Positions 25,837-37,038 of a stretch of DNA of 42,057 nucleotides are shown piece after piece; the first letter of the stretch is position 1, and each line of letters begins with the position of its first letter. The position numbers and the translations under genes were made by a program. The notes under the pieces were generated by a model, which did not search any database, was not told the origin of the DNA, and was given only the letters and a program-made list of their open reading frames with translations. Source of the stretch: an uncultured Oscillibacter sp. GTDB taxonomy: Bacteria > Bacillota > Clostridia > Oscillospirales > Oscillospiraceae. Location of the stretch: NCBI GenBank assembly GCA_950097265.1, contig CATNDJ010000015.1, positions 1-42,057 on the forward strand. Reading direction: 5' to 3'.

Positions 25837-28281
25837 CTATTCTGCGGCGTTGCACTCCGCGAAAAGATTGAATCCCCGGTTGGCTCCGTTTCCGGCGAAA
25901 GCCCGCAGCAGCCCGCCGATTTCCTCCCGGGTCTCTTTGTTGTTTTTGCCTACCAGCAGAACGCGGTAGCGGTAGCGGTTGTTCACCTTCAGCACCGGGG
26001 CCGGGGCGGGGCCCAGGACCTCGCCGTCCCCAAAGCGCTTCCGGAGCTGGTCGCGGATGCCGATGGCCGCCCGGAGCACTGCCCCTTCCTCCGCGCCGGA
26101 GACGGTAAGGGTAAACAGGTCCGCGAAGGGCGGAAGCCGTCGGAGCCGCCGCATCCGAATTTCGCCTTCATAAAAGCGCTCATAGTCCTGCCGGGCGGCG
26201 CACTGGATCACGTCGTTTTCCGGCGTATAGGTCTGAATGACGGCCCGGCCGGACTTTCCGCCCCGGCCCGCCCGGCCCACCACCTGGGTCAGCAGGCTGA
26301 AGGTCCGCTCCGCCGCCCGGTAGTTCTCCAGATACAGCGAGAGGTCCGCCGCCAGAACGCCCACCAGGGTCACGTTTTCAAAATCCAATCCCTTAGCCAC
26401 CATTTGGGTTCCCAGCAGAATGGGAATGCGCTCCTTCTCAAAACGGCGCAGCAGCTTTTCGTGGCCTTCCGCCGTGGTATCCGCGTCCATTCGCAGAATG
26501 CCCGCGCCGGGAAATAGGCCCGCCAGCTCCTCCTCCACCTTCTGCGTCCCCGCCCCAATTCGCTTCATAATGCCGCCGCAGGAGGGGCATGCGTCAAAGC
26601 CCCGCTGGGAGTGACCGCAGTGGTGGCACATCAGCCGCCCATTGGCAAAGTGATAGGTCAGCGGGGCGCTGCACCGGGGACATTCCGGAACATAGCCGCA
26701 CTCCCCGCACAGCAGCATCCGGCTGCCGCCCCGGCGGTTCAAAAAGAGGATGCTCTGTTCCCCCGCCTCAAGATTCCGTTCCAGCTCCCGCCGGAGGTCC
26801 GCCCCCACAAGGCCGGGATTTCCCGCCTTAATCTCCTGACGGAGATCGGCAATCAGAACCTGCGGCAGATTCTGCTCGTTGTACCGGCGGCGGAGCAGCG
26901 CCTTGTGGTACTGCCCCTCCGCCGCCGCCCAGGCTGTCTCAACGGAGGGCGTGGCAGAACCTAAGACCAGCAGCGCTTTATCCCGGGCGCAGAGGTATTT
27001 GGCAATATCCCGGGTGTGATACCGTGGAGGATTTTCCGAGAGATAGCTGCCCTCCTGCTCCTCGTCCAAAATGACAACGCCAAGATTCCGCAGAGGGGCA
27101 AAAATCGCGGAACGGGTGCCCAGCACCACCTTGACCTCTCCCCGGCGGACGCGCTTCCACTGGTCGTAGCGCTCCGTCATGCGGAGGCCGCTGTGCAGCA
27201 TGGCGACGTCCTCGCCGAAATAGGAGGAAAATTTCGCCATCATCTGCGGCGTCAGCACAATCTCCGGCACCAGGACAATGGCCGTCCTTCCCTTGGACAG
27301 TATCTCCTGGACCAGCCGTAAATAGACCTGGGTTTTTCCGCTGCCGGTCACGCCCTGCAGCAGCGCGCCGGAGGTCCGGCCCGCCGCCGCCAGTTCACGG
27401 AGTCCGTCAAACGCCTGCTGCTGCTCCTCGTTCAGCACAATAGGCGGACCAGGCTCCACATTTACAGGAAGGGAGACCCGCAGTTGCTCCATCTCGGAGA
27501 AAACCAGCAAACCCGCCTTCTCCATTCCCCGGAGAATCCGGAGAGAAGCGCCGGTAAAATAAGAAATATCCGCACAGGCGGTCTTTCCGTTGGCGGCCAG
27601 CAGCTTCACCACCTCATAGCGGGCAGGGGAAGAACGCCGCTTTGCCTCCGTCAGGGCCAGCGCCTCCTCGGAGCTGAGGGCCAGTTCCGCCATCAGCCGG
27701 GTCTTGTCCCCCACCTTCTGCTTCGCCGCCGTCTCGTGCCAGACAATTCCCGCTTTCTCCAGAGCCCGGAGGGCCGAGAGCACGTCGTCCCCATGGGCGT
27801 CCCGCAGGGCGTCCAGCCCGGCGGAGCCGCCGGAGCGCTCCAGCGTCTCCAAAACCTCGGGCCCATGGCGGACGCCCGCCGCCGCGGCCCTGGCCGTCTC
27901 GGGGTCCAGCTCCGCCTGGAGCCGCCAGATTTCCCGGAGGCGGTACCACAGCCCGGCGGGCAAAATGGTCCGGACTGCCTCGGACATGGTGCAAAAGTAA
28001 CGCTGGCGCATCCAGAGAGCCAAGGCCAGCCCCGCGCCGTCCAGCACCGGCTCCCGATCCAACAGGTTGGAGAGAGCCTTTAAGCCCCGGACTTTTTTCC
28101 CCTCGCCCCGGGCCAGAATCATACCCTCGGACAGCTTGTTCCCCCTGCCAAAGGGCACGGTCACCCGGACGCCGGGAATCGCCAGTTCTTCCAGCCCCGC
28201 CGGGACCAGGTAGTCGTAGGGCTTATCAATATGATAGGGCGCGGCGCTGACCGCCACTTTTACGATGGCCGCGGTTTCCAT
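25837..28281 (-). CDS. priA: Primosomal replication helicase PriA
   Basis: 814 aa. An N-terminal 3'-DNA-binding domain (PYHIDKPYDYLVPAGLEEL) and a winged-helix region are followed by the helicase core: Walker A GVTGSGKTQVYL near residue 310 and VVILDEEQEGSY (DEEQ box) near 404. A zinc region with paired Cys (about residues 523-575: CGECGYVPECPRCSAPL, CHHCGHS, ACPSCG) splits the helicase, then TQMVAKGLDF and VGRAGRG. It restarts collapsed replication forks by loading the replicative helicase. The start has no strong ribosome site, only CCCGG, so coupling to rpoZ upstream is likely. Confidence 0.96.
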   Translation of the reverse strand: METAAIVKVAVSAAPYHIDKPYDYLVPAGLEELAIPGVRVTVPFGRGNKLSEGMILARGEGKKVRGLKALSNLLDREPVLDGAGLALALWMRQRYFCTMSEAVRTILPAGLWYRLREIWRLQAELDPETARAAAAGVRHGPEVLETLERSGGSAGLDALRDAHGDDVLSALRALEKAGIVWHETAAKQKVGDKTRLMAELALSSEEALALTEAKRRSSPARYEVVKLLAANGKTACADISYFTGASLRILRGMEKAGLLVFSEMEQLRVSLPVNVEPGPPIVLNEEQQQAFDGLRELAAAGRTSGALLQGVTGSGKTQVYLRLVQEILSKGRTAIVLVPEIVLTPQMMAKFSSYFGEDVAMLHSGLRMTERYDQWKRVRRGEVKVVLGTRSAIFAPLRNLGVVILDEEQEGSYLSENPPRYHTRDIAKYLCARDKALLVLGSATPSVETAWAAAEGQYHKALLRRRYNEQNLPQVLIADLRQEIKAGNPGLVGADLRRELERNLEAGEQSILFLNRRGGSRMLLCGECGYVPECPRCSAPLTYHFANGRLMCHHCGHSQRGFDACPSCGGIMKRIGAGTQKVEEELAGLFPGAGILRMDADTTAEGHEKLLRRFEKERIPILLGTQMVAKGLDFENVTLVGVLAADLSLYLENYRAAERTFSLLTQVVGRAGRGGKSGRAVIQTYTPENDVIQCAARQDYERFYEGEIRMRRLRRLPPFADLFTLTVSGAEEGAVLRAAIGIRDQLRKRFGDGEVLGPAPAPVLKVNNRYRYRVLLVGKNNKETREEIGGLLRAFAGNGANRGFNLFAECNAAE

Positions 28282-28290
28282 TTCCGGGCT

Positions 28291-28503
28291 TTACGCTTCT
28301 TCAGAAGCGCTCTCGCCGCCGCCGGTAAGCTTGCCGGCCGCCACTTCATGGATGGCCAGGGTCACCGGCTTTTCTTCCAGGTGCAGGCCGGTAGTCTCGG
28401 CTTCCTCGGCGATCTGGCGGGCCCGGCGAGCCACCACGTTCACCAGCATATAGCGGTTAGGAATATAAGAATTGAGTTTGCTCATAGCGGGATACAGCAT
28501 CAT
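28291..28503 (-). CDS. rpoZ: RNA polymerase omega subunit
   Basis: 70 aa. The omega core is clear: NRYMLVNVVARRARQIAEE, then KPVTLAIHEVAAGKL. It helps fold and hold the beta-prime subunit. The C-terminus is a short Gly/Ser/Glu tail. AAAGGAAG lies upstream of consecutive ATGs at 28503 and 28500; a TTG two codons earlier is too close to the site. It follows gmk in the conserved gmk-rpoZ-priA order. coaBC, usually next in Bacillus, is absent. Confidence 0.92.
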   Translation of the reverse strand: MMLYPAMSKLNSYIPNRYMLVNVVARRARQIAEEAETTGLHLEEKPVTLAIHEVAAGKLTGGGESASEEA

Positions 28504-28541
28504 AGTCAATCAGCTTCCTTTCCAGTTACAATCTATGGCGG

Positions 28542-29138
28542 TTACTTGCCGCTGATGATCTCCATGCGATCTATGGAGCGGCAGTGTTCCGCCGTCATAA
28601 TGGCATCCAGTTCCTCGGCGGCGTTTTCGATGGTGTCGTTGATGACAAAATAGTGGTACGCCCCGGCGGTGCGGCACTCCACCTTGGCCCGCAGCAGCCG
28701 TTTTTCGATTTTCTCCGGGCTGTCAGTGCCCCGGAGAGTCAGACGGCGGGCCAGCTCCTCCCAACTGGGAGGCGCAATGAAAATCAGAACGGCTTCCGGA
28801 CGCTTGTGGGCGATTTGCAGGGCGCCCTGAACGTCGATTTCCAGGATCACGTCCCGTCCCGACTCCATGGCCTCGTCCACGAAGCGCTTGGGTGTGCCAT
28901 AGAAGTTGCCCACGTACTCGGCATATTCCAAAAACGCGTCCTGGGCCATCCACTCGTGGAAGGTGTCTACGTCCAGGAAGTGGTAGTGGACGCCGTTCAC
29001 CTCCCCATCCCGGGGCGGACGGGTAGTGGCGGAAACGGAGACGTAAACATCCCTTCGCTTTTCCAGCAGTACTTTCAGCACGCTGCCCTTCCCCACGCCG
29101 GAGGGTCCGGACACAATAAAGGTCTTTCCCTTTTTCAT
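28542..29138 (-). CDS. gmk: Guanylate kinase
   Basis: 198 aa. It phosphorylates GMP to GDP with ATP. The P-loop GPSGVGKGS is at residues 11-19, followed by [20 protein letters not shown] (GMP site), [16 protein letters not shown] and the [10 protein letters not shown] segment. The LID has [15 protein letters not shown]. It overlaps remA by four bases. Confidence 0.97.
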
Positions 29139-29374
29139 GCTTCCTCCTTTTTCCCCGCGCCGAACTTCTCCAGCGGCAGGGCCGATAAAATCACATGATC
29201 GCTGTCCATAATGAAGATCGAGGCGGTCTTCCGCCCGTAGGTCGCGTCAATCAACATCCCCCGCTCCCGGCTCTCCTGGGTCATGCGGCGGATGGGAGCG
29301 GAGTCGGGGCCCACGATGGCCACCACCCGCTCCCGGGAAACCATGCTTCCAAAACCGATATCGATAAATTCCAT
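29135..29374 (-). CDS. remA: RemA-family DNA-binding regulator (DUF370)
   Basis: 79 aa. The family start [20 protein letters not shown] and the middle [19 protein letters not shown] match RemA, a ring-forming DNA-binding protein that activates biofilm matrix and osmoprotection genes in Bacillus. Its location between yicC and gmk is conserved. Whether it has the same targets in a gut anaerobe is unknown. Confidence 0.92.
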
Positions 29375-29377
29375 GTC

Positions 29378-30259
29378 TCACTCCACGTTCTGCACCTGTT
29401 CCCGCATCTTCTCCACCTCGGCCTTCAGGTTTACCACCACCTGAGCGATGGACACGTCGCCGCATTTGGAGCCGATGGTGTTGGCCTCCCGGTTGACCTC
29501 CTGGATGAGAAAATCCATCTTCCGCCCCATGGGCTCTGTGGCCTCCAGCATGGTCCGGAGCTGGGCCACGTGGCTCCGCAGCCGGACGGTCTCCTCGTCC
29601 ACCGCCACCTTGTCGGCGTAGATGGCCGCCTCTGTGAGGATGCGCTGGGGATCAATGGTCACGCTTTGCAGGGCCTCCTGCATCCGGGCGGTGAGCTTGG
29701 CCCGGTACTCCGCCACGGTTTCCGGGGAGCGGGCCTCCACCTGCCCGGTGTATTCCTCAATGGCGGATAAGCGGTTTCCGATGTCCTCCGCCAGCCGGGC
29801 GCCCTCCACGCCCCGCATCTCGTTGAAAGCCGCCAGGGCTGCGTCCAGCACGGCGCAGAGGTCGGCGCTGACCGCCTCCAGGTCCTCGTCCGCCTTGGTG
29901 ACGGAGAGCACGTCCGGGAACCGGGCCAGCACCTCCGGCGTGACCTTGTAGGCTACAGGGCCGCAGACCTCCGCCAGCTCGTTCAGCGCAGCGGCGTACT
30001 GCCCCGCCAGCTCCCGGTTGACCATCACCTTTGTCACGTCAGCGGCGGAGGCGTCCACGGTGACGAACACATCCACCTTCCCCCGGGAGACCGCCTTCTG
30101 GACCCGCTGTTTCAGCGCGTCCTCGGCAAAGATATACAGTCGGGGCATCTTCACCGTGCAGTCTAAATAGCGGTTGTTGACCGCCCGGACCTCCACGGTG
30201 ATATCCCGACTGTTCCTGTTCTCTCTGGCCCGGCCATAGCCGGTCATGCTCTTGATCAT
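29378..30259 (-). CDS. YicC/YloC-family endoribonuclease
   Basis: 293 aa. The N-terminus MIKSMTGYGRA and the segment EVRAVNNRYLDCTVKMPR are invariant in the family. The C-terminus has the DUF1732 part MDFLIQEVNREANTIGSK followed by VVNLKAEVEKMREQVQNVE. YicC proteins are metal-dependent endoribonucleases that in E. coli promote small-RNA turnover. It heads the Bacillus-like housekeeping order; 45 bases separate it from the Cys-rich gene upstream on the same strand, and I see no clear promoter between them, so read-through is possible. Confidence 0.93.
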   Translation of the reverse strand: MIKSMTGYGRARENRNSRDITVEVRAVNNRYLDCTVKMPRLYIFAEDALKQRVQKAVSRGKVDVFVTVDASAADVTKVMVNRELAGQYAAALNELAEVCGPVAYKVTPEVLARFPDVLSVTKADEDLEAVSADLCAVLDAALAAFNEMRGVEGARLAEDIGNRLSAIEEYTGQVEARSPETVAEYRAKLTARMQEALQSVTIDPQRILTEAAIYADKVAVDEETVRLRSHVAQLRTMLEATEPMGRKMDFLIQEVNREANTIGSKCGDVSIAQVVVNLKAEVEKMREQVQNVE

Positions 30260-30304
30260 GGTGATCTCCCCTTATCATTCAGATAAAACCGCAAATACGC
30301 ACAG

Positions 30305-30754
30305 TCAGTCCGGACAGCTTCCATTGCAGTTAATGCACCCGTTCGTAAAGCTCTCACAGCAGCACAGCATGCTGTATTCAAAGCACTTATAGCTACAGAA
30401 TCCGCCCGCGCAAATGATGCCGCAGACTGCCAAGTCGGGAAGCGCGGACAAAGTGCCGGCAGGCATTCCCTTGGGGCGGTATCGGTTTATCTCCTGCATC
30501 CGTTCCGCCGCCCGCTTGTACTCCTCGTTTCCCGGCTCCAGGCCCGCGGCGGCCTCGTAGTGCTGCCGGGCCTCGTCCAGCCAGCCCTTGCGGTAGCAAA
30601 CCGCGCCCTTGAGAAAATGCCACTCGGCGCAGCGGTCCTCCACGCCGTCCAGCAGCTCCTCCGCCCAGGAAAGCTCTCCCGCCTGGATATCGGAGCGGAC
30701 CTGCCGGAAGACCTGCCGGTCTTCGTCCCGGGTGTTTGTCGTGTGTCCGTCCAT
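30305..30754 (-). CDS. Repeat protein with Cys-rich tail (J-less paralogue 2)
   Basis: 149 aa. An N-terminal helical, TPR-like part (about 10-85) contains ELSWAEELLDGVEDRCAEW and GWLDEARQHYEAAAGLEPGN. A linker follows, and then a tail of about 45 residues holds ten Cys (for example AVCGIICAGGFCSYKC and SMLCCCES). The helical part is homologous to residues about 85-165 of the J-domain protein at 31300-31908 but lacks the J domain. It is a very recent duplicate of the next gene: 30616-30754 and 31143-31281 differ at only about five bases. The start at 30754 has AGGGGGA. Function is unknown; metal or Fe-S binding by the tail is inference. Confidence 0.75.
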   Translation of the reverse strand: MDGHTTNTRDEDRQVFRQVRSDIQAGELSWAEELLDGVEDRCAEWHFLKGAVCYRKGWLDEARQHYEAAAGLEPGNEEYKRAAERMQEINRYRPKGMPAGTLSALPDLAVCGIICAGGFCSYKCFEYSMLCCCESFTNGCINCNGSCPD

Positions 30755-30822
30755 AGTGTGGAGTCCCCCTATCTGTCGCCTGAAGCCGTATGAGTCATGA
30801 GGCCGGCTTGTGCCCCATGCAT

Positions 30823-31281
30823 CTATCCGCAACGGTTGCAGAAATCGGAGCACTCGTTACAAGGGATACAACAGCTTTTAAAGCAGCAATCACAGCCGCA
30901 AAAGCAGCATTGCCGGACACAGAATCCTCCCACACAGAGGCTTCCGCACGCCACCAAAACCGGAAGTGTCGAGGACAGCGTGCCCTCCAGAATCCCCTCG
31001 GGACTGTAACGCATCCCCTCCCGCATCCGTTCCGCCGCCTCCCGGTACTCCTCATTCTCCGGTTCCATCTCGCAAGCGGCCTCGTAGTGCTGCTGGGCCT
31101 CGTCCATCCAGCCCTTGCGGTAATAGATCTGCCCCTTGAGGAAATGCCACTCAGCGCAGCGGTCCTCCATGCCGTCCAGCAGCTCCTCCGCCCAGGAAAG
31201 CTCTCCCGCCTGGATATCGGAGCGGACCTGCCGGAAGACCTGCCGGTCTTCGTCCCGGGCGTTTGTCGTGTGCTCGTCCAT
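30823..31281 (-). CDS. Repeat protein with Cys-rich tail (J-less paralogue 1)
   Basis: 152 aa, the same plan as its neighbour: a TPR-like helical part (ELSWAEELLDGMEDRCAEW, GWMDEAQQHYEAACEMEPEN) and a C-terminal tail in which 15 of the last 41 residues are Cys (for example VRQCCFCGCDCCFKSCC). The spacing is irregular, unlike a ferredoxin or a classic zinc finger, and resembles metallothionein-like or disulfide-rich tails. No signal peptide is visible. The ribosome site is GGGAG. It lies 18 bases after the J-domain gene on the same strand. No known family name can be given. Confidence 0.75.
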   Translation of the reverse strand: MDEHTTNARDEDRQVFRQVRSDIQAGELSWAEELLDGMEDRCAEWHFLKGQIYYRKGWMDEAQQHYEAACEMEPENEEYREAAERMREGMRYSPEGILEGTLSSTLPVLVACGSLCVGGFCVRQCCFCGCDCCFKSCCIPCNECSDFCNRCG

Positions 31282-31299
31282 ACCCAGTCTCTCCCATTG

Positions 31300-31908
31300 T
31301 CAAATGAAGCAGCAGTATCCCCCATTGCACAGCGTATAGGCGCAGCACAGGGTCAGGCAGGGATTCCCGGCGCACAGGGTTCCGAAGGGCTCTCCCCCGG
31401 GCCGGTAGGGCGAGCCGTTCTGCATCAGGTTCAGCGCCCTCCGGTACTCCGGATTGCCCGGCTCCATCTGGCAGGCGGTCTCATAATACCGCATGGCCTC
31501 GTCCATCCAGCCCCGGCGGTAGCACACCGCGCCCTTGAGGAAGTTCCACTCGGCGTTGTGGTCCTGGATATTGTTCAAAAGCGCCTCCGCCCGGGCCACG
31601 TCCCCCATCTGGATGGCGGCCCGGACCTGCTGGAGGACGGAGGAGGACCCGCTGGAACCATAGGATTGCTGCCAGCCCCCGGCATAGGAGGAGCTGGAGC
31701 CCCCGGCCCTGTTCCCGCCGCTTCTCCGACGGTTGATCTCCTCGTAGGCGGCGTTGATCTCCTTCATTTTTTCTTGGGCCAGGTCGGCCAGGGGGTTGTC
31801 GTGGTAGTTGTCCGGGTGGTATTTCCTCGCCAGCTCCCGGTAAGCCCGCTTGACCTCCTCGTCGCTGGCGCTCTCCGAAATACCGAGTACCTGATAGGGA
31901 TCGTTCAT
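31300..31908 (-). CDS. J-domain protein with TPR-like repeat and Cys-rich tail
   Basis: 202 aa. The N-terminal J domain (1-65) has [20 protein letters not shown] and H31-P32-D33 in ARKYHPDNY, so it should stimulate an Hsp70 (DnaK). A Gly/Ser-rich linker (about 66-88) is followed by a TPR-like helical pair ([40 protein letters not shown]) and a short tail with seven Cys ([18 protein letters not shown]). It is not DnaJ: no G/F zinc-finger or client-binding domains. It overlaps the DUF5685-type gene by four bases (ATGA) and is followed by two J-less paralogues. It probably brings DnaK to a specific Cys-rich or metal-containing client; that is inference. Confidence 0.85.
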
Positions 31909-32795
31909 GTGTTTCTCTCCTGTGCTTCTCTCTTCTTACCTCCGCCTCCGCGGAAGGTCCCGTCCAGCACAGCCTTCCCAACGCGGAAAAGGCCGGCGTA
32001 AAGGGTGGTCTCCAAAACCGGCGTCCAAACGCCGAAGTCCCACAGCTCAAAAGCGGCGGCCATCATGTGGATGGAGTGGTCCAGGGTGGCGGCGAAGCTC
32101 ACCCGGGTTTCCTCTGTCCAAACACCGCCGGACAAGCCGTAGCGCAGGGCAACCGGATTGTAATTCCCGGAGGCGGCGTCTTTTTTCAGGTCGTCCGCCG
32201 CGTCCACCAGGTAGACCCAGCGGCCCAGGTGGTAAAGAATCTGCTCCAGCACCCGACGCTGCACCGGCTCGTCCACCGCCTGGGCGGCCCCCTGCAGCAG
32301 CACGGCGAAGGTGTCCGCCGCCCGGTCCATGGACGGGCAGTTCTCCCGCTCCAGCTCCGCCAAAAGACGGAGCTGGCGGCGGGTGGACTCGTCAAAATCA
32401 GGCCGGGCCCGGGCGGCCTTCCGGTAGGCCCGCTCCAAGACGGCGGAGGCTCCCCGGTACTTCAGGCCGTGGAGCGTATCGTGGTCCTCCACGCCGTCCC
32501 GGGCCTGCCAATAGGCTAAAATCACGCTCTCGTCCGCCGCCAGGGCCAGGGCCGGGGTGGTCTCCAGCCGCTCCCGCCCGTGGACGGGGTGGGCGGCGCA
32601 GCGCCCGTGGTGGACAGGCCCCTCCTCCCTCTCCGAGAGGAGGATGGCCAGGAAGGTAAAATCGTAGTTCAGGATGAACCGCGCCGCCGTCCCGTAGCGC
32701 TCCCCCAGGACGTGGCAGAGGCCGCAGTAGGCCCGGCCGAAGCGCTTCAGCTCCTCCTCCGGCAAATCCTGAGGCGGCCTGACGTAGCCGAACAT
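31905..32795 (-). CDS. DUF5685-family protein
   Basis: 296 aa. The N-terminus MFGYVRPP, then [14 protein letters not shown] (C24, C27, H28) and [11 protein letters not shown] are the hallmark of the DUF5685 family, which has no known function. The rest is predicted all-helical, with [20 protein letters not shown] in the last third; its acidic cluster and GNYNP recall helical metal- or prenyl-binding enzymes, but that likeness is not proof. It overlaps the J-domain gene downstream and the RseC-like gene upstream (TGATG), so the three are one translationally coupled set. A CxxC pair near the start invites a metal role. Confidence 0.78.
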
Positions 32796-33205
32796 CAGAA
32801 CAGCCGGACGATGGTGAAGGACAGCCCGCCCCTGGCCCGGAGGCGCCGGTCATAGCCGATGGCCCCCAGGATACCCAGGACGAAGCCCGCGGCGGCGGCG
32901 GTGTACTGAACCGCCACGCTGGCGGTCACCGCCATGGCCAGGAAGTAGCCCAGGAAAAACAGGGCCACGGGAATCAAATAAACCAGGGCCACAATGCGGA
33001 GCATTTTTTTTGTGCTGCTCTCCACTACGACCTTCTGCCCCGGAGCGGCCCCGATGGGGTTCCGCGCCCGGGCGTGGACCGCCGCGCCAGTGACGCCGCA
33101 GCCCGCGCACTCCTCGCAGTCGTGTCCGCAGGCGGACTTCCGGGGAACCGAGATCTCGGCGTGCCCGGCGTCCAGGATTCTCTCAACCGTTGCGATCTGT
33201 GTCAT
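32795..33205 (-). CDS. RseC/MucC-family membrane protein (SoxR-reducing type)
   Basis: 136 aa from the ATG at 33205 with GGGAGG upstream. The N-terminal soluble part contains C26, C30, C33 and C36 (SACGHDCEECAGCG). Two membrane spans follow (IVALVYLIPVALFFLGYFLA and AAAAGFVLGILGAIGYD). The family contributes to reduction of the SoxR Fe-S cluster and links to Rnf electron transfer in proteobacteria; its role in Clostridia is less clear. It overlaps the end of cdaR by 23 bases and the next gene by four, so it bridges the c-di-AMP genes and the Cys-rich block. Confidence 0.85.
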   Translation of the reverse strand: MTQIATVERILDAGHAEISVPRKSACGHDCEECAGCGVTGAAVHARARNPIGAAPGQKVVVESSTKKMLRIVALVYLIPVALFFLGYFLAMAVTASVAVQYTAAAAGFVLGILGAIGYDRRLRARGGLSFTIVRLF

Positions 33206-34577
33206 GGCTTCCTCCCTCCGTTTCGTCTCCAACGGGGGCGCTGGCCTCCACGTCCTCCGGTTTTGCCTCATCCTCCGGCGGCGGCTCCTCGCCGCCCTCC
33301 CGGATGGTGACCTGAATCTGATACAGTCCGCTGATGCCCACGTCGCCCTTGTTCACCGTCACTTCCGCGGGAATGGTATAGGTGCCGGAGGCGGCGGAAT
33401 AATCGTCCAGGTCCACCGTTACGGCAATGTCCTCTCCCGTGAGGGCGGCAACGTCCGCCTCGGTGCCAAAGACCTTCACCGCCAGGCTGTCCGTCAGCAG
33501 CTCCACGCGTTTGCCCTCCGGCAGGTTCAGCCAGGAGATATTTTCCGTAGAAATCGTAGCGCTGGTCATGTCCTTGAACCGGATGCGCAGGGCGGCCCGG
33601 GTGACGCCGCTGACATTTGTGCAGCCGTCCGGCAGGATGATGGGGTAGTTGGTGGTGGTGTAGTTCTCCGAGGCCGTGGTCCCCAGCTCCAGCAGGTTGT
33701 AGGCGGGACTCAGCTTCAGGGTCTCCACGTCCTTAAGCCTGGTGGCGTCCCCGGTGACGGCGATGGTCTGGGGTTCAATGACATACTCCGTGTTCCGGGC
33801 GCGGCAGCCAGGGGCGTCGATGAAGTCCACCGCCAGGTGCAGCTCCTTGGTGACGAACACTGGCAGCGTGGCCCGGACGGTCTCCGCCGAGGAGTAGATG
33901 CCGGACTTGTCCAAAATCCGGCCGTTTTCGTCATAATACTGGAGCTCCAGGTCCCGGGATACCGTCTCTACCGCGTTGGCGCCGATGTCCAGGGTGACCT
34001 TGGCGTAGCTGATGGGGTTGATGTCCTCCTGAAGGCCCCGGACCTCCACCTCCGTGTGGGAGAGCTCCACCTGCCCGGCGGAATAGGTGTCCGCCACGCC
34101 GCCCACCAGCTCGCAGCTGACGTCGATGGTCCGGCTGTAGAGCTCACTGATGTTTACCGTCGCCATGCCAAAGCTGGCGTTTTCCCGCTGGATGGCGTTG
34201 TTGCCAAATCTGGAATCCGTAAAGCTAACGACGTAGTTGACCCGCTGCACTCCGGCGCTGGTCACATCATAAAGGCTGGCGGTCACCCGGATATGCGAAC
34301 GGTCCAGGCTGGAAATCAGCCAGCGGGTGCCCTTCAGCTCCAAATCAATGGTGCGGTCCGTGTCCTCGTCTACCAGCATCAGCCCCCGGTCCGTCAGGGT
34401 GCTCTCATATAAATACTCAATGGGGATCTCCAGGAACTCCCGGGTTTGGGTCTGCGGCGTGCCGTTGGGGCCGCTGGTTAAATCGGCGTAGAGCCAAATA
34501 CCGGCGGCTACCAAAATGGACAGCAGCACATAGACGACCCTCCGGCGTCCGATCTTCTCGTTTTCCACCTTACGCAC
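33183..34577 (-). CDS. cdaR: CdaR, YbbR-domain regulator of the diadenylate cyclase
   Basis: 464 aa. One N-terminal membrane span (VVYVLLSILVAAGIWLYADL) is followed by several YbbR-type beta domains outside, each about 85-90 residues, with repeated segments such as VRGLQEDINPI, VTGDATRLKDVETL and VKVFGTEADVAAL. The end is a Glu/Pro-rich disordered tail. CdaR binds CdaA at the membrane and modulates c-di-AMP synthesis. It overlaps cdaA by eight bases. The glmM gene that usually follows in Bacillus is not present. Confidence 0.92.
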   Translation of the reverse strand: MRKVENEKIGRRRVVYVLLSILVAAGIWLYADLTSGPNGTPQTQTREFLEIPIEYLYESTLTDRGLMLVDEDTDRTIDLELKGTRWLISSLDRSHIRVTASLYDVTSAGVQRVNYVVSFTDSRFGNNAIQRENASFGMATVNISELYSRTIDVSCELVGGVADTYSAGQVELSHTEVEVRGLQEDINPISYAKVTLDIGANAVETVSRDLELQYYDENGRILDKSGIYSSAETVRATLPVFVTKELHLAVDFIDAPGCRARNTEYVIEPQTIAVTGDATRLKDVETLKLSPAYNLLELGTTASENYTTTNYPIILPDGCTNVSGVTRAALRIRFKDMTSATISTENISWLNLPEGKRVELLTDSLAVKVFGTEADVAALTGEDIAVTVDLDDYSAASGTYTIPAEVTVNKGDVGISGLYQIQVTIREGGEEPPPEDEAKPEDVEASAPVGDETEGGSHDTDRNG

Positions 34578-35442
34578 CTCCGTCCTTCCTGGAGCGCAGC
34601 AGGCCCGTCAGGCTGAATTTCTGCTTTTCCGTCCCGGCCTCCTCCTGCGGAAGCAGCTCGTTCCGCAGGAGGTTATCCAGGGTCTCCGGCTTCAAATGCC
34701 GTTTCAGCATTCCGCCGGTGGCCACCGAGATAGAGCCGGTCTCCTCCGATACGATGACCACCACCGCGTCGGAGTTTTCGCTCATGCCGATGCCCGCCCG
34801 GTGCCGCATGCCTAAATCCCGGGACAGATTCACGTTCTTGCTCAGGGGGAGCATGCACCCCGCCCCCAGCACCCGACCGTGGCGGACGATGACCGCCCCG
34901 TCGTGCATGGGCGCCTTGACAAAAAAGATATTTTTCAAAAGCTCGCTGGACACCGCTGCATCCAGCACTGTGCCGCTGCGGACCATGTCGTCCAAAAGAA
35001 TCTCCCGCTCGAACACAATCAGCGCGCCGGTACGGGACTGGGACATCTCCGAACAGGCCAGGACGGTCTGCTCGATGGTCTGCTCCAGAACGCTGGCGTT
35101 CTCCGTCCGAGTGAAGAGGGCCAGGATGCGGCGACTTCCCATCTCCTCCAAAATCCGGCGGATCTCCGGCTGGAACAGGATGATGAGCGCCAGCACCCCC
35201 ACCTCCACCATTCGGCTCAGCAGATAGTAGATGCCGTTCAGCCCAAACAGGTAGCTTAAAAGCAGAGCCGCCAGGAAAACAAACAGCCCCTTCAAAAGGC
35301 TGGCGGCTTTCGTAGTCTGCACCAGGGTCAGTACTTTATAGAGCGCGAACGCCATGATGGCAATATCCAAAACATCCGAAACCTCAATGGTCAGCAGATA
35401 CCGGCCGATGGTGGCAAACAGCTCCGTCAGCGTCACATTCAT
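34570..35442 (-). CDS. cdaA: Diadenylate cyclase CdaA
   Basis: 290 aa. Three N-terminal membrane spans (for example ALYKVLTLV and GLFVFLAALLLSYLFGL) are followed by a DAC domain with DGA at 181-183 (MHDGAVIVRHG) and R213-H214-R215 (GMRHRAGIGMSE). It condenses two ATP into c-di-AMP, the second messenger that controls potassium and osmotic balance and cell-wall integrity. A strong sigma-A promoter lies 85 bases upstream, so cdaA heads a transcript that runs through cdaR into the Cys-rich block. Confidence 0.96.
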   Translation of the reverse strand: MNVTLTELFATIGRYLLTIEVSDVLDIAIMAFALYKVLTLVQTTKAASLLKGLFVFLAALLLSYLFGLNGIYYLLSRMVEVGVLALIILFQPEIRRILEEMGSRRILALFTRTENASVLEQTIEQTVLACSEMSQSRTGALIVFEREILLDDMVRSGTVLDAAVSSELLKNIFFVKAPMHDGAVIVRHGRVLGAGCMLPLSKNVNLSRDLGMRHRAGIGMSENSDAVVVIVSEETGSISVATGGMLKRHLKPETLDNLLRNELLPQEEAGTEKQKFSLTGLLRSRKDGGA

Positions 35443-35594: not shown

Positions 35595-36728
35595 TCAGAA
35601 AACCCGTTCCACCACTCCCTGGACCGCCCGGATCAGCCGGGCCGTCTCCTCCGGCGTGTTGAAATCGGAAAAGCTGACGCGGATAGTGCCGGTGTCCAGG
35701 GTTCCCGCCGTGCGGTGGGCGTAAGGGGCGCAGTGGATGCCCGCCCGGACGGCGAATCCCCGCTCCGCCAGGGCGGTGCCGAAGGTCTCCGCATCCACGC
35801 CCTCCGCCGTCAGGGACAGTACGCCCGTCTGGTGCCGGAGGCCCGGGGATGCGAACAGCCTCAGGCCCGGCAGGGACTCCAGCCCCTGGACCGTCATTTG
35901 AACCAAGTGCTTTTCGTGGGCCAGAATTTTCTCCATTCCGCCCCGGCGGACATAGCGGATCCCGGCCAGCAGCCCCGCGATTCCCGGCATGTTCAGGGTG
36001 CCCGCCTCCAGCCGGTCCGGCAGGAAATCCGGCATCCGCTGCTGGATCGACAGGCTGCCGGTGCCTCCCTCCAGGAGAGGCCGGGTAAGCACGTCCTCCC
36101 GGCAGAGCAGCACACCGGTGCCCTGGGGACCGTACAGGCCCTTGTGCCCCGGCATGGCGGCGAAGGCCGCGCCCAGGGCCTCCATGTCCAGGGGCAGGAC
36201 CCCGGCGGACTGAGAGGCGTCGATGATGAAGGGCACGCCCCGGTTCCGGCAGATGGCGGCGATCTCCTCCACCGGCTGGATAAAGCCGAAGACGTTGGAG
36301 ACGTGGCTGCAAACCACGGCGTCGGTGCCGGGAACGATGAGGCGGTCAAACGCCCTGGTCACCGCTTCCGGCTCGAACAGCGGTGCAGCGGCAACAGAGA
36401 CGTTCGCTCCCAGGGCCTCCAGAGGCCGGGTGACGGCGTTGTGCTCATAGCCGGAGACCACCGCCCTCCCTCCCGGCGGGACCAGGCTCTTAATGGCAAT
36501 GTTCAGGGCATGGGTGGCGTTGAGGGTGAAGACCACCTGTTCCGGATTTCTCAGGCCGAAGAGCTCCGCCAGCTCCGAGCGGCACTGAAAGGCCGTATCG
36601 GCGGCCCGGGCGGCGGCGGGATATCCCCCCCGCCCCGGCGAGCTCATGGAGGCCAGGGCCTCCCACATGGCGGCGGCGACGGAAGCGGGCTTTTGGAAGC
36701 TGGTGGCGGCGCTGTCGAAATAGATCAT
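35595..36728 (-). CDS. Class V aminotransferase, cysteine desulfurase-like
   Basis: 377 aa PLP enzyme of the NifS/SufS group. Visible parts: YFDSAATSFQKP; the cofactor region with EHNAVTRPLEAL; FIIDASQSAGVLPLD; the Schiff-base Lys K196 in MPGHKGLYGPQG; and the likely sulfur-carrying C333 in RAGIHCAPYAHRT. A desulfurase moves sulfur (or selenium) from cysteine to a carrier. The DUF3343 protein encoded just before it, with a four-base overlap, is a family often proposed as a sulfur or selenium carrier, which fits. It is not next to iscU/suf genes, so a role outside general Fe-S assembly is possible. Confidence 0.87.
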   Translation of the reverse strand: MIYFDSAATSFQKPASVAAAMWEALASMSSPGRGGYPAAARAADTAFQCRSELAELFGLRNPEQVVFTLNATHALNIAIKSLVPPGGRAVVSGYEHNAVTRPLEALGANVSVAAAPLFEPEAVTRAFDRLIVPGTDAVVCSHVSNVFGFIQPVEEIAAICRNRGVPFIIDASQSAGVLPLDMEALGAAFAAMPGHKGLYGPQGTGVLLCREDVLTRPLLEGGTGSLSIQQRMPDFLPDRLEAGTLNMPGIAGLLAGIRYVRRGGMEKILAHEKHLVQMTVQGLESLPGLRLFASPGLRHQTGVLSLTAEGVDAETFGTALAERGFAVRAGIHCAPYAHRTAGTLDTGTIRVSFSDFNTPEETARLIRAVQGVVERVF

Positions 36729-36976
36729 GTCCCCACCTCCTGATATAAACCTTTTTGAAACAAAAATATTTGAACGGGGTCCAGGCCGTCCCTGTGGAGG
36801 GCGGTCAGGGCCTCCGGCAGATCGGAAATCGCTACGCGCACGGCGTAGGCGCAGCCCATATCCGTCAGCTCCCGAGGGGGCCGGAAGATATGGCAGCGGA
36901 CGCCCGCCCGTCCCAAGGACTTCTGCATCCGCTGGGCATAGGTAACGGAGCGGGCCAGGATGATATAGTGCTCCAC
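36725..36976 (-). CDS. DUF3343 protein, putative Se/S carrier
   Basis: 83 aa from a GTG at 36976; AAAGGAGG lies seven bases upstream, whereas the ATG eight codons earlier has no site. The family motif is clear: YIILARSVTYAQRMQKSL, CHIFRPPRELTDMGCAYAVRV with C28 and C42. C42 in GCAYAVRV is the usual conserved Cys. Members sit beside cysteine desulfurases or selenium genes and are thought to carry persulfide or selenium, though this has not been shown here. ATGA overlap with the desulfurase supports a functional pair. Confidence 0.82.
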   Translation of the reverse strand: MEHYIILARSVTYAQRMQKSLGRAGVRCHIFRPPRELTDMGCAYAVRVAISDLPEALTALHRDGLDPVQIFLFQKGLYQEVGT

Positions 36977-37038
36977 AAACACTCCTCCTTTCTCTCCCAT
37001 ATTATGGAGACGGAGGAGAAAGGTGCCTGAGGCGCGCG

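Follow-up and report, generated by a model that had tools for sequence, protein, structure and literature searches.

ComQ, the P domain of ChrPC and PalQ, all members of the isoprenoid-synthase superfamily, modify a polypeptide post-translationally, their targets being tryptophan residues. The ComQ gene adjoins the gene of a small peptide acceptor (PMC4008528, in excerpt), and PalQ requires a peptide terminus (PMC13290415, in excerpt). Here, a comparable arrangement is described in a stretch of 42,057 nucleotides, referred to throughout as the window, which is contig 15 of the 2.49 Mb draft genome of an uncultured Oscillibacter sp. (GCA_950097265.1, CATNDJ010000015.1, positions 1 to 42,057 of the forward strand). 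In it, a gene for a DUF5685 protein, predicted to belong to the same superfamily, is followed by a gene for a J-domain/TPR protein with a cysteine-rich C-terminal tail. DUF5685 differs from ComQ, ChrPC and PalQ in its invariant cysteines, its full second aspartate motif and the lack of an isoprenoid Pfam match, and its partner, unlike the acceptors of ComQ and PalQ, is a predicted co-chaperone with a cysteine tail. From the computed fold and the computed gene pairing we infer, with belief and doubt in equal measure, that DUF5685 may prenylate the tail cysteines and thereby anchor an Hsp70 co-chaperone at the membrane.

The eukaryotic protein prenyltransferases, including farnesyltransferase (FTase), geranylgeranyltransferase I (GGTase-I) and Rab geranylgeranyltransferase (Rab GGTase), use a C-terminal cysteine as acceptor, as is proposed here, where 77 of the 152 relatives' tails on which all tail statistics are based end in CC. 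They are alpha/alpha toroids, a fold other than that of DUF5685; no sequence relation to DUF5685 was seen, and the tails follow no CaaX rule. Rab substrates include XXCC, and in the eukaryotic enzymes a zinc thiolate activates the cysteine and gives selectivity, according to the available part of PMC13290415. Cysteine string protein alpha (CSP alpha, DNAJC5) is a J-domain co-chaperone that is put at membranes by a lipidated Cys-rich domain (PMC10903463, in excerpt). It differs from the present system in being eukaryotic and palmitoylated and in having no isoprenoid-fold enzyme. Its cysteine string is not known to lie at the extreme C-terminus. A Cys-rich DnaJ-type protein is also paired with an isoprenoid-fold enzyme in plants, where ORANGE (DnaJE1), a holdase on its targets, is associated with phytoene synthase; unlike the J/Cys-tail protein, it has a DnaJ-type CxxCxGxG zinc finger and no J domain, and no cysteine modification is described in the available part of PMC12063368. 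Prenylated cysteine is known from eukaryotes, and no bacterial case was found: among the matches listed from the open-licence PubMed Central literature, neither this system nor bacterial cysteine prenylation is described, and DUF5685 is named in the available part of PMC9403866 in a list only.

Predicted fold and conserved residues of the DUF5685 protein

The DUF5685 protein of the window scores 205.8 bits against PF18937, whose gathering cut-off is 26.7. It is predicted to adopt the class I all-helical isoprenoid synthase fold, and in the model both conserved Asp-rich motifs are placed at the C-terminal end of a long helix. Residue conservation was scored over 161 sequences (Table 1). The pseudo-second motif of ComQ, with Asn first and Asp second, is not present in DUF5685, in which D198, D202 and D206 are kept in all 161. 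The fold and the invariant Asp motifs back the proposal of a preliminary description of the window, made from the letters alone, that DUF5685 acts as an enzyme.

The PF00348 polyprenyl diphosphate synthases have the overall fold and the helix position of the two Asp-rich motifs in common with DUF5685, which, unlike them, has no such Pfam match. Among 35 diverse DUF5685 sequences, no invariant or nearly invariant Lys or Arg was found ahead of D100, and thus no GGKRxRP-like site for isopentenyl diphosphate (IPP) is evident. A closer kinship in fold to the squalene/phytoene synthase subgroup may exist. A PDB sequence search with A1 returned designed helical proteins and other weak, unrelated matches, and a scan of viral contigs with the window protein returned no relative.

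Two genome samples were searched, 147 genomes from the order and 299 from the phylum (G labels). DUF5685 was detected in 111 and 33 of them, respectively, and as a control in Thermotoga maritima, which lies outside the phylum.

Pairing with a cysteine-tailed protein

Neighbourhoods (L labels) were examined at 60 order loci, 20 phylum loci and 80 loci of named relatives. The named loci are mainly near kin of the window, whose closest named relatives are Oscillibacter, Dysosmobacter and other Oscillospiraceae, and counts there are therefore non-independent. The 20 phylum loci were drawn from the 33 DUF5685-positive genomes; of the other 13, three are in the order set, G302 and G394 were read later, and eight, including G230, G232 and G267, were covered without reading their stretches. 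In 59 of the 60 order loci DUF5685 is immediately followed by the Cys-tail gene, the exception (L061) ending at a contig end. The same holds for 17 of the 20 phylum loci; in L137 and L138 the tail gene is about 7-8 kb away. The tail gene follows DUF5685 in 76 of the 80 named loci; three others (L161, L186, L209) hit a contig end, and L216 has no adjacent tail gene and two matches to the tail profile elsewhere in the genome.

The pairing was also followed genome-wide. An exact DNA pattern for C-[DE]-C-M-G-G-D occurs once each in 35 of the 147 order and 9 of the 299 phylum genomes, and all 44 matches lie 390-758 bases from a DUF5685 match (G230, G232 and G267 among them), while the reversed-pattern control gave 0 matches. 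A TPR-plus-tail profile of 126 positions (A7; E up to 1e-10) matched 108 of the 147 order genomes: DUF5685 and A7 occur together in 106, DUF5685 alone in 5, A7 alone in 2 and neither in 34 (Fisher p 1e-25, shared ancestry uncorrected). The tails of the 106 were read in part, most A7 matches extending to positions 119-126. Four of the five genomes with DUF5685 only carry a short J-plus-tail gene right behind it, missed because A7 needs TPR, and in the fifth (G126) DUF5685 is cut by the contig end, so that after inspection 110 of the 111 DUF5685-bearing order genomes have a tail-protein match. As to the two genomes with A7 only, the tail gene of G142 lies at a contig edge, and the G145 protein has a hydrophobic segment and no Cys tail. 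G302 gave no A7 match, but a short Cys-tail frame stands in its cluster. The pairing of DUF5685 with a Cys tail is real, and the conserved linkage that the preliminary description had staked its proposal on is borne out.

The constant element of the system is the tail, and not the J domain or the TPR. It is carried by a J-plus-TPR protein in most loci, by a J protein without TPR in six (L125, L129, G045, G079, G105, G146), by proteins without J in L133, L136 and L139 as well as in T1 and T2 of the window, and in L135 by DUF5685 itself, as a Cys-rich C-terminal extension. Cysteine is found among the last four residues in 149 of the 152 tails, and the last 32 residues contain 4 to 11 Cys; some loci have hydrophobic tails with 4-5 Cys, e.g. 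LCFGLCIADLCCPFC. The HPD motif is present in 57 of the 59 J-type proteins of the order loci, being missing in L046 and L063.

In three J/TPR proteins from the A7 search, encoded in G145, G112 (C95) and G004 (C97), there is no Cys tail and a hydrophobic segment occupies the C-terminal region. No DUF5685 was found in the stretches read beside these genes (7 kb in G145, 2 kb in G112 and G004), nor did a search of the G145 genome give a match. Such a swap is expected if the tail together with DUF5685 serves as the equivalent of a membrane segment. All three genes adjoin a gene for a zinc-ribbon membrane protein, of a kind also met beside DUF5685/Cys-tail pairs elsewhere. At E up to 1e-12, the G145 protein was matched in 29 of the 36 DUF5685-negative order genomes; leaving aside G145 and the G142 tail gene at its contig edge, these matches are to the J domain of frames of 280-415 amino acids (aa) resembling ordinary DnaJ.

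T1 and T2, which have no J domain, look like a local, lineage-specific duplication. Their DNA is 89% identical over the first 266 bases, the Cys tails having strongly diverged, and over some 220 bases of the TPR part both match the J gene at about 74% identity, so that they look like duplicates of its 3' half. The own-genome search matched T1, T2 and the J gene only. L142 has one T1-like gene and L143 a shortened T2-like frame; the closer relatives L140 and L141 gave neither.

Proposed mechanism and competing explanations

In the proposed mechanism, DUF5685, as an enzyme of the class I isoprenoid-synthase fold, would move the prenyl group of a prenyl diphosphate onto cysteines in its partner's C-terminal tail. 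The diphosphate would be ionised by Mg2+ bound at D100/D104 and D198/D202/D206, and the acceptor thiolate would be activated at a candidate Cys/Cys/Cys/Asp site (C24, C27, C66, D45). Once prenylated, the tail would keep the J/TPR protein at the membrane, where it would recruit DnaK. A fuller version is put forward more tentatively, as somewhat likelier to fail than to hold in full: a dedicated bacterial S-prenylation, in which a zinc-thiolate DUF5685 modifies the C-terminal cysteines of usually one co-chaperone per genome, giving a lipid-anchored platform for Hsp70 recruitment convergent with Rab prenylation and cysteine string protein. In distant lineages (an informal label, not tree-based, for genomes with a polyprenyl-synthase-like neighbour), Hsp70, GrpE and what would be a second, ComQ-like prenyltransferase or else a donor synthase are encoded in the vicinity.

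Several results weigh against prenylation of the tail. A Pfam search of DUF5685 (E up to 1) gives no isoprenoid family, PF00348 and PF00494 both being absent; its best Foldseek match has an E value of 3.6e-3, with none at 0.001, although absence from a VIA or Foldseek listing does not amount to a family being ruled out; and hhalign against the polyprenyl-synthase-like set is non-significant (probability 2.7 and 0.1). The joining of C24, C27, D45 and C66 at the active site is a candidate arrangement. The second motif of ComQ is degenerate and DUF5685 retains three Asp, and the characterised prenyltransferases resembling trans-isoprenyl diphosphate synthases act on Trp (PMC13290415, in excerpt). 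Many tails combine 7-11 Cys with conserved acids (CADCCCECMGGDLI), a make-up that would fit metal binding as well. The swap evidence comes from just three proteins, two of whose genomes (G112, G004) carry a DUF5685/Cys-tail pair elsewhere. Hydropathy was computed for G145 alone (2.69 over 19 residues), G112 and G004 being judged by eye, and the G145 segment precedes about 40 polar residues; among 74 Cys-tail proteins with Cys scored 0, the top hydropathy is 1.86 and a few are fairly hydrophobic. Finally, G280 has a DUF5685 match with an internal stop and no A7 match, its locus not having been read.

The strongest alternative, which is nevertheless rather unlikely, has DUF5685 making a small isoprenoid product, like squalene and phytoene synthases, with the J/Cys-tail protein serving it as a dedicated chaperone and thus as the bacterial equivalent of ORANGE in plants. 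The holdase role of ORANGE beside phytoene synthase would suit this, as would the nearly constant co-occurrence of DUF5685 and its partner. The DxxxD and DxxxDxxxD spacing resembles that of squalene/phytoene synthase and counts on the same side. Against it count the constant element, which is an extreme C-terminal Cys tail and not the J domain or TPR, and the hydrophobic-segment J/TPR proteins without adjoining DUF5685; CxxCxGxG repeats like those of ORANGE are not seen in the tails, and the order loci yielded no polyprenyl-synthase-like gene, no other isoprenoid-pathway family having been sought.

It was suggested in the preliminary description that the tails bind Zn or Fe-S and that the system matures or protects metal or thiol proteins with DnaK, DUF5685 assisting. 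The CxxC-rich spacing of many tails and their conserved acids, C24/C27/C66 of DUF5685 and the zinc-ribbon membrane protein adjoining some pairs would be in keeping with such a metal or redox pathway, but it gained no positive evidence and is quite improbable: an isoprenoid-synthase fold with its diphosphate-type Asp kept would be superfluous for a metal chaperone, and tails with as few as 4-5 Cys amid hydrophobic residues, together with hydrophobic segments able to replace the tail, point to membrane anchoring. Least probable is that DUF5685 prenylates another acceptor (lipid, sugar or RNA) with the Cys-tail protein as a targeting or regulatory subunit. The neighbouring gene Mem speaks against this, its tie to DUF5685 being looser than that of the Cys tail: of the 111 DUF5685 genomes 15 have no Mem match, and Mem occurs in 9 genomes that lack DUF5685. 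Prenylation of the tail cysteines by DUF5685 would be the most economical reading.

Neighbouring genes and significance

In the window, five minus-strand genes, from RseC to T2, follow one another (Table 1), with their Cys counts and their start/stop overlaps (1 base for RseC/DUF5685, 4 bases for DUF5685/J) as first described. T2 read from its ATG has 149 aa, and a longer GTG open reading frame begins at 30853. YbbR and CdaA lie upstream on the same strand and YicC downstream, the cassette standing within a block cdaA-ybbR ... yicC-remA-gmk-priA (25837-35442; remA, gmk and priA named from sequence), whose members are missing from many other order loci and are therefore placed outside the cassette. 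A class V aminotransferase (PF00266) and then a short gene, which we take to be DUF3343, occupy 35595-37000; in many relatives, too, they precede cdaA. Scanning the window for Rfam families and tRNAs gave zero matches, and no NCBIfam cut-off was met by the RseC, DUF5685, J, T1, T2 or YbbR proteins.

Table 1. Features of the window (numbered from its first letter) and of related loci
Feature	Position	Strand	Remarks
RseC/MucC-like membrane protein	32795..33205	-	PF04246 (RseC_MucC) E 1e-25; 4 Cys near N-terminus
DUF5685 protein, 296 aa	31905..32795	-	PF18937 E 1.1e-60
C24-x-x-C27, candidate metal/thiolate site	32715..32726	-	160/160 with a residue in the column
D45, candidate metal ligand	32661..32663	-	D in 156, E in 5 of 161
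C66, candidate metal ligand	32598..32600	-	In single beta-hairpin 61-77; 161/161
First aspartate pair D100xxxD104	32484..32498	-	C-terminal end of helix 81-104; D100 161/161, D104 160/161
Second aspartate motif D198xxxD202xxxD206	32178..32204	-	At or just past C-terminal end of helix 177-201; each 161/161
J-domain/TPR/Cys-tail protein, 202 aa	31300..31908	-	DnaJ PF00226 E 3.2e-17; 7 tail Cys
J domain with HPD, residues 3-58	31735..31902	-	PF00226 E 3.2e-17; HPD seen directly
TPR region, residues 92-159	31432..31635	-	TPR_16 and TPR_14 matches; TPR_14 alone above cut-off
Cys-rich C-terminal tail	31303..31380	-	7 Cys, ends CCFI; proposed prenylation site
T1, J-less TPR/Cys-tail paralogue	30823..31281	-	15 tail Cys
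T2, second J-less TPR/Cys-tail paralogue	30305..30754	-	10 tail Cys
Zinc-ribbon membrane proteins	L120 9043-9465; L052 8384-8779; L318 216-638; L319 143-613
Polyprenyl-synthase-like genes	L276 10144-11169; L277 8782-9813; L137 5498-6643; L135 9117-10064; L278 3957-4643

RseC, which had been counted as part of the system, was dropped as a component. It was detected in 71 of the 80 named relatives, mostly close ones, versus 14 of the 60 order loci, and it is retained in G001 (L269), where neither DUF5685 nor a tail gene was found; this distribution makes it an overlapping neighbour outside the conserved module. Mem, which in relatives has the fold of the S-component of an energy-coupling factor (ECF) transporter, comes after the tail gene in 52 of the 60 order loci. 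It was considered as an essential third component, a role weakened by the genomes that have one of Mem and DUF5685 without the other and by the window genome, whose Mem is unlinked to the DUF5685 locus (G000:C4:88722-89222; L274 5720-6238). Mem was not seen in the stretches of the named relatives L140-L196. In some loci the J/TPR gene has next to it a gene for a small membrane protein with a zinc ribbon at its C-terminus (assigned by eye), whether DUF5685 is present or not.

The 176 stretches scanned for Hsp70 and polyprenyl-synthase-like genes gave each near DUF5685 in five genomes, and neither at any order or named DUF5685 locus. The neighbourhoods of G370, G394 and G200 hold GrpE, Hsp70, Cys-tail, polyprenyl-synthase-like and membrane-protein genes (the last DUF2232-like in G370 and G200), with DUF5685 on the other strand. 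Hsp70 was also found in L120, 61 bases upstream of DUF5685, and in L126, where it comes downstream of the gene pair. The DnaK link of the preliminary description is thus partly supported, by Hsp70 in five genomes, three of them with GrpE, and qualified by the 2 of 59 J-type proteins in which HPD is missing. GrpE and two short Hsp70 genes (about 510 aa) adjoin the Cys-tail gene in L137 (1032-5498) and L276 (5807-10144), possibly as a dedicated Hsp70 system.

Polyprenyl-synthase-like genes occur in G370, G394, G200, G295 (L135) and G302, whose partial stretch also holds tail, membrane and DUF5685 genes. The first motif is kept in the four full-length copies, in which the IPP-site Lys is replaced by Met or Arg, and the second is replaced by N-D-x-N-N in all five. 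In ComQ, the second motif has Asn (or Gly) first and Asp second, and an Asn-to-Asp exchange drastically cuts activity (PMC5331326, in excerpt); a ComQ-like signature therefore stands near DUF5685 in five genomes. Its bearing on the system is suggestive only. None of the five proteins reached an NCBIfam cut-off, and the top match below it, for four of them, was the family 2 encapsulin cargo polyprenyl transferase. Sequence homology between DUF5685 and these neighbours was considered and rejected, hhalign giving nothing significant.

Prenylation of proteins and peptides is already known; novel in themselves would be the acceptor (a bacterial protein cysteine), the enzyme family and the co-chaperone client. 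DUF5685, a domain so far without a function and present in 111 of 147 order and 33 of 299 phylum genomes, gains a predicted fold, candidate catalytic residues and a candidate substrate. If the proposal is true, a J-protein with a lipid anchor would have arisen in bacteria separately from cysteine string protein.

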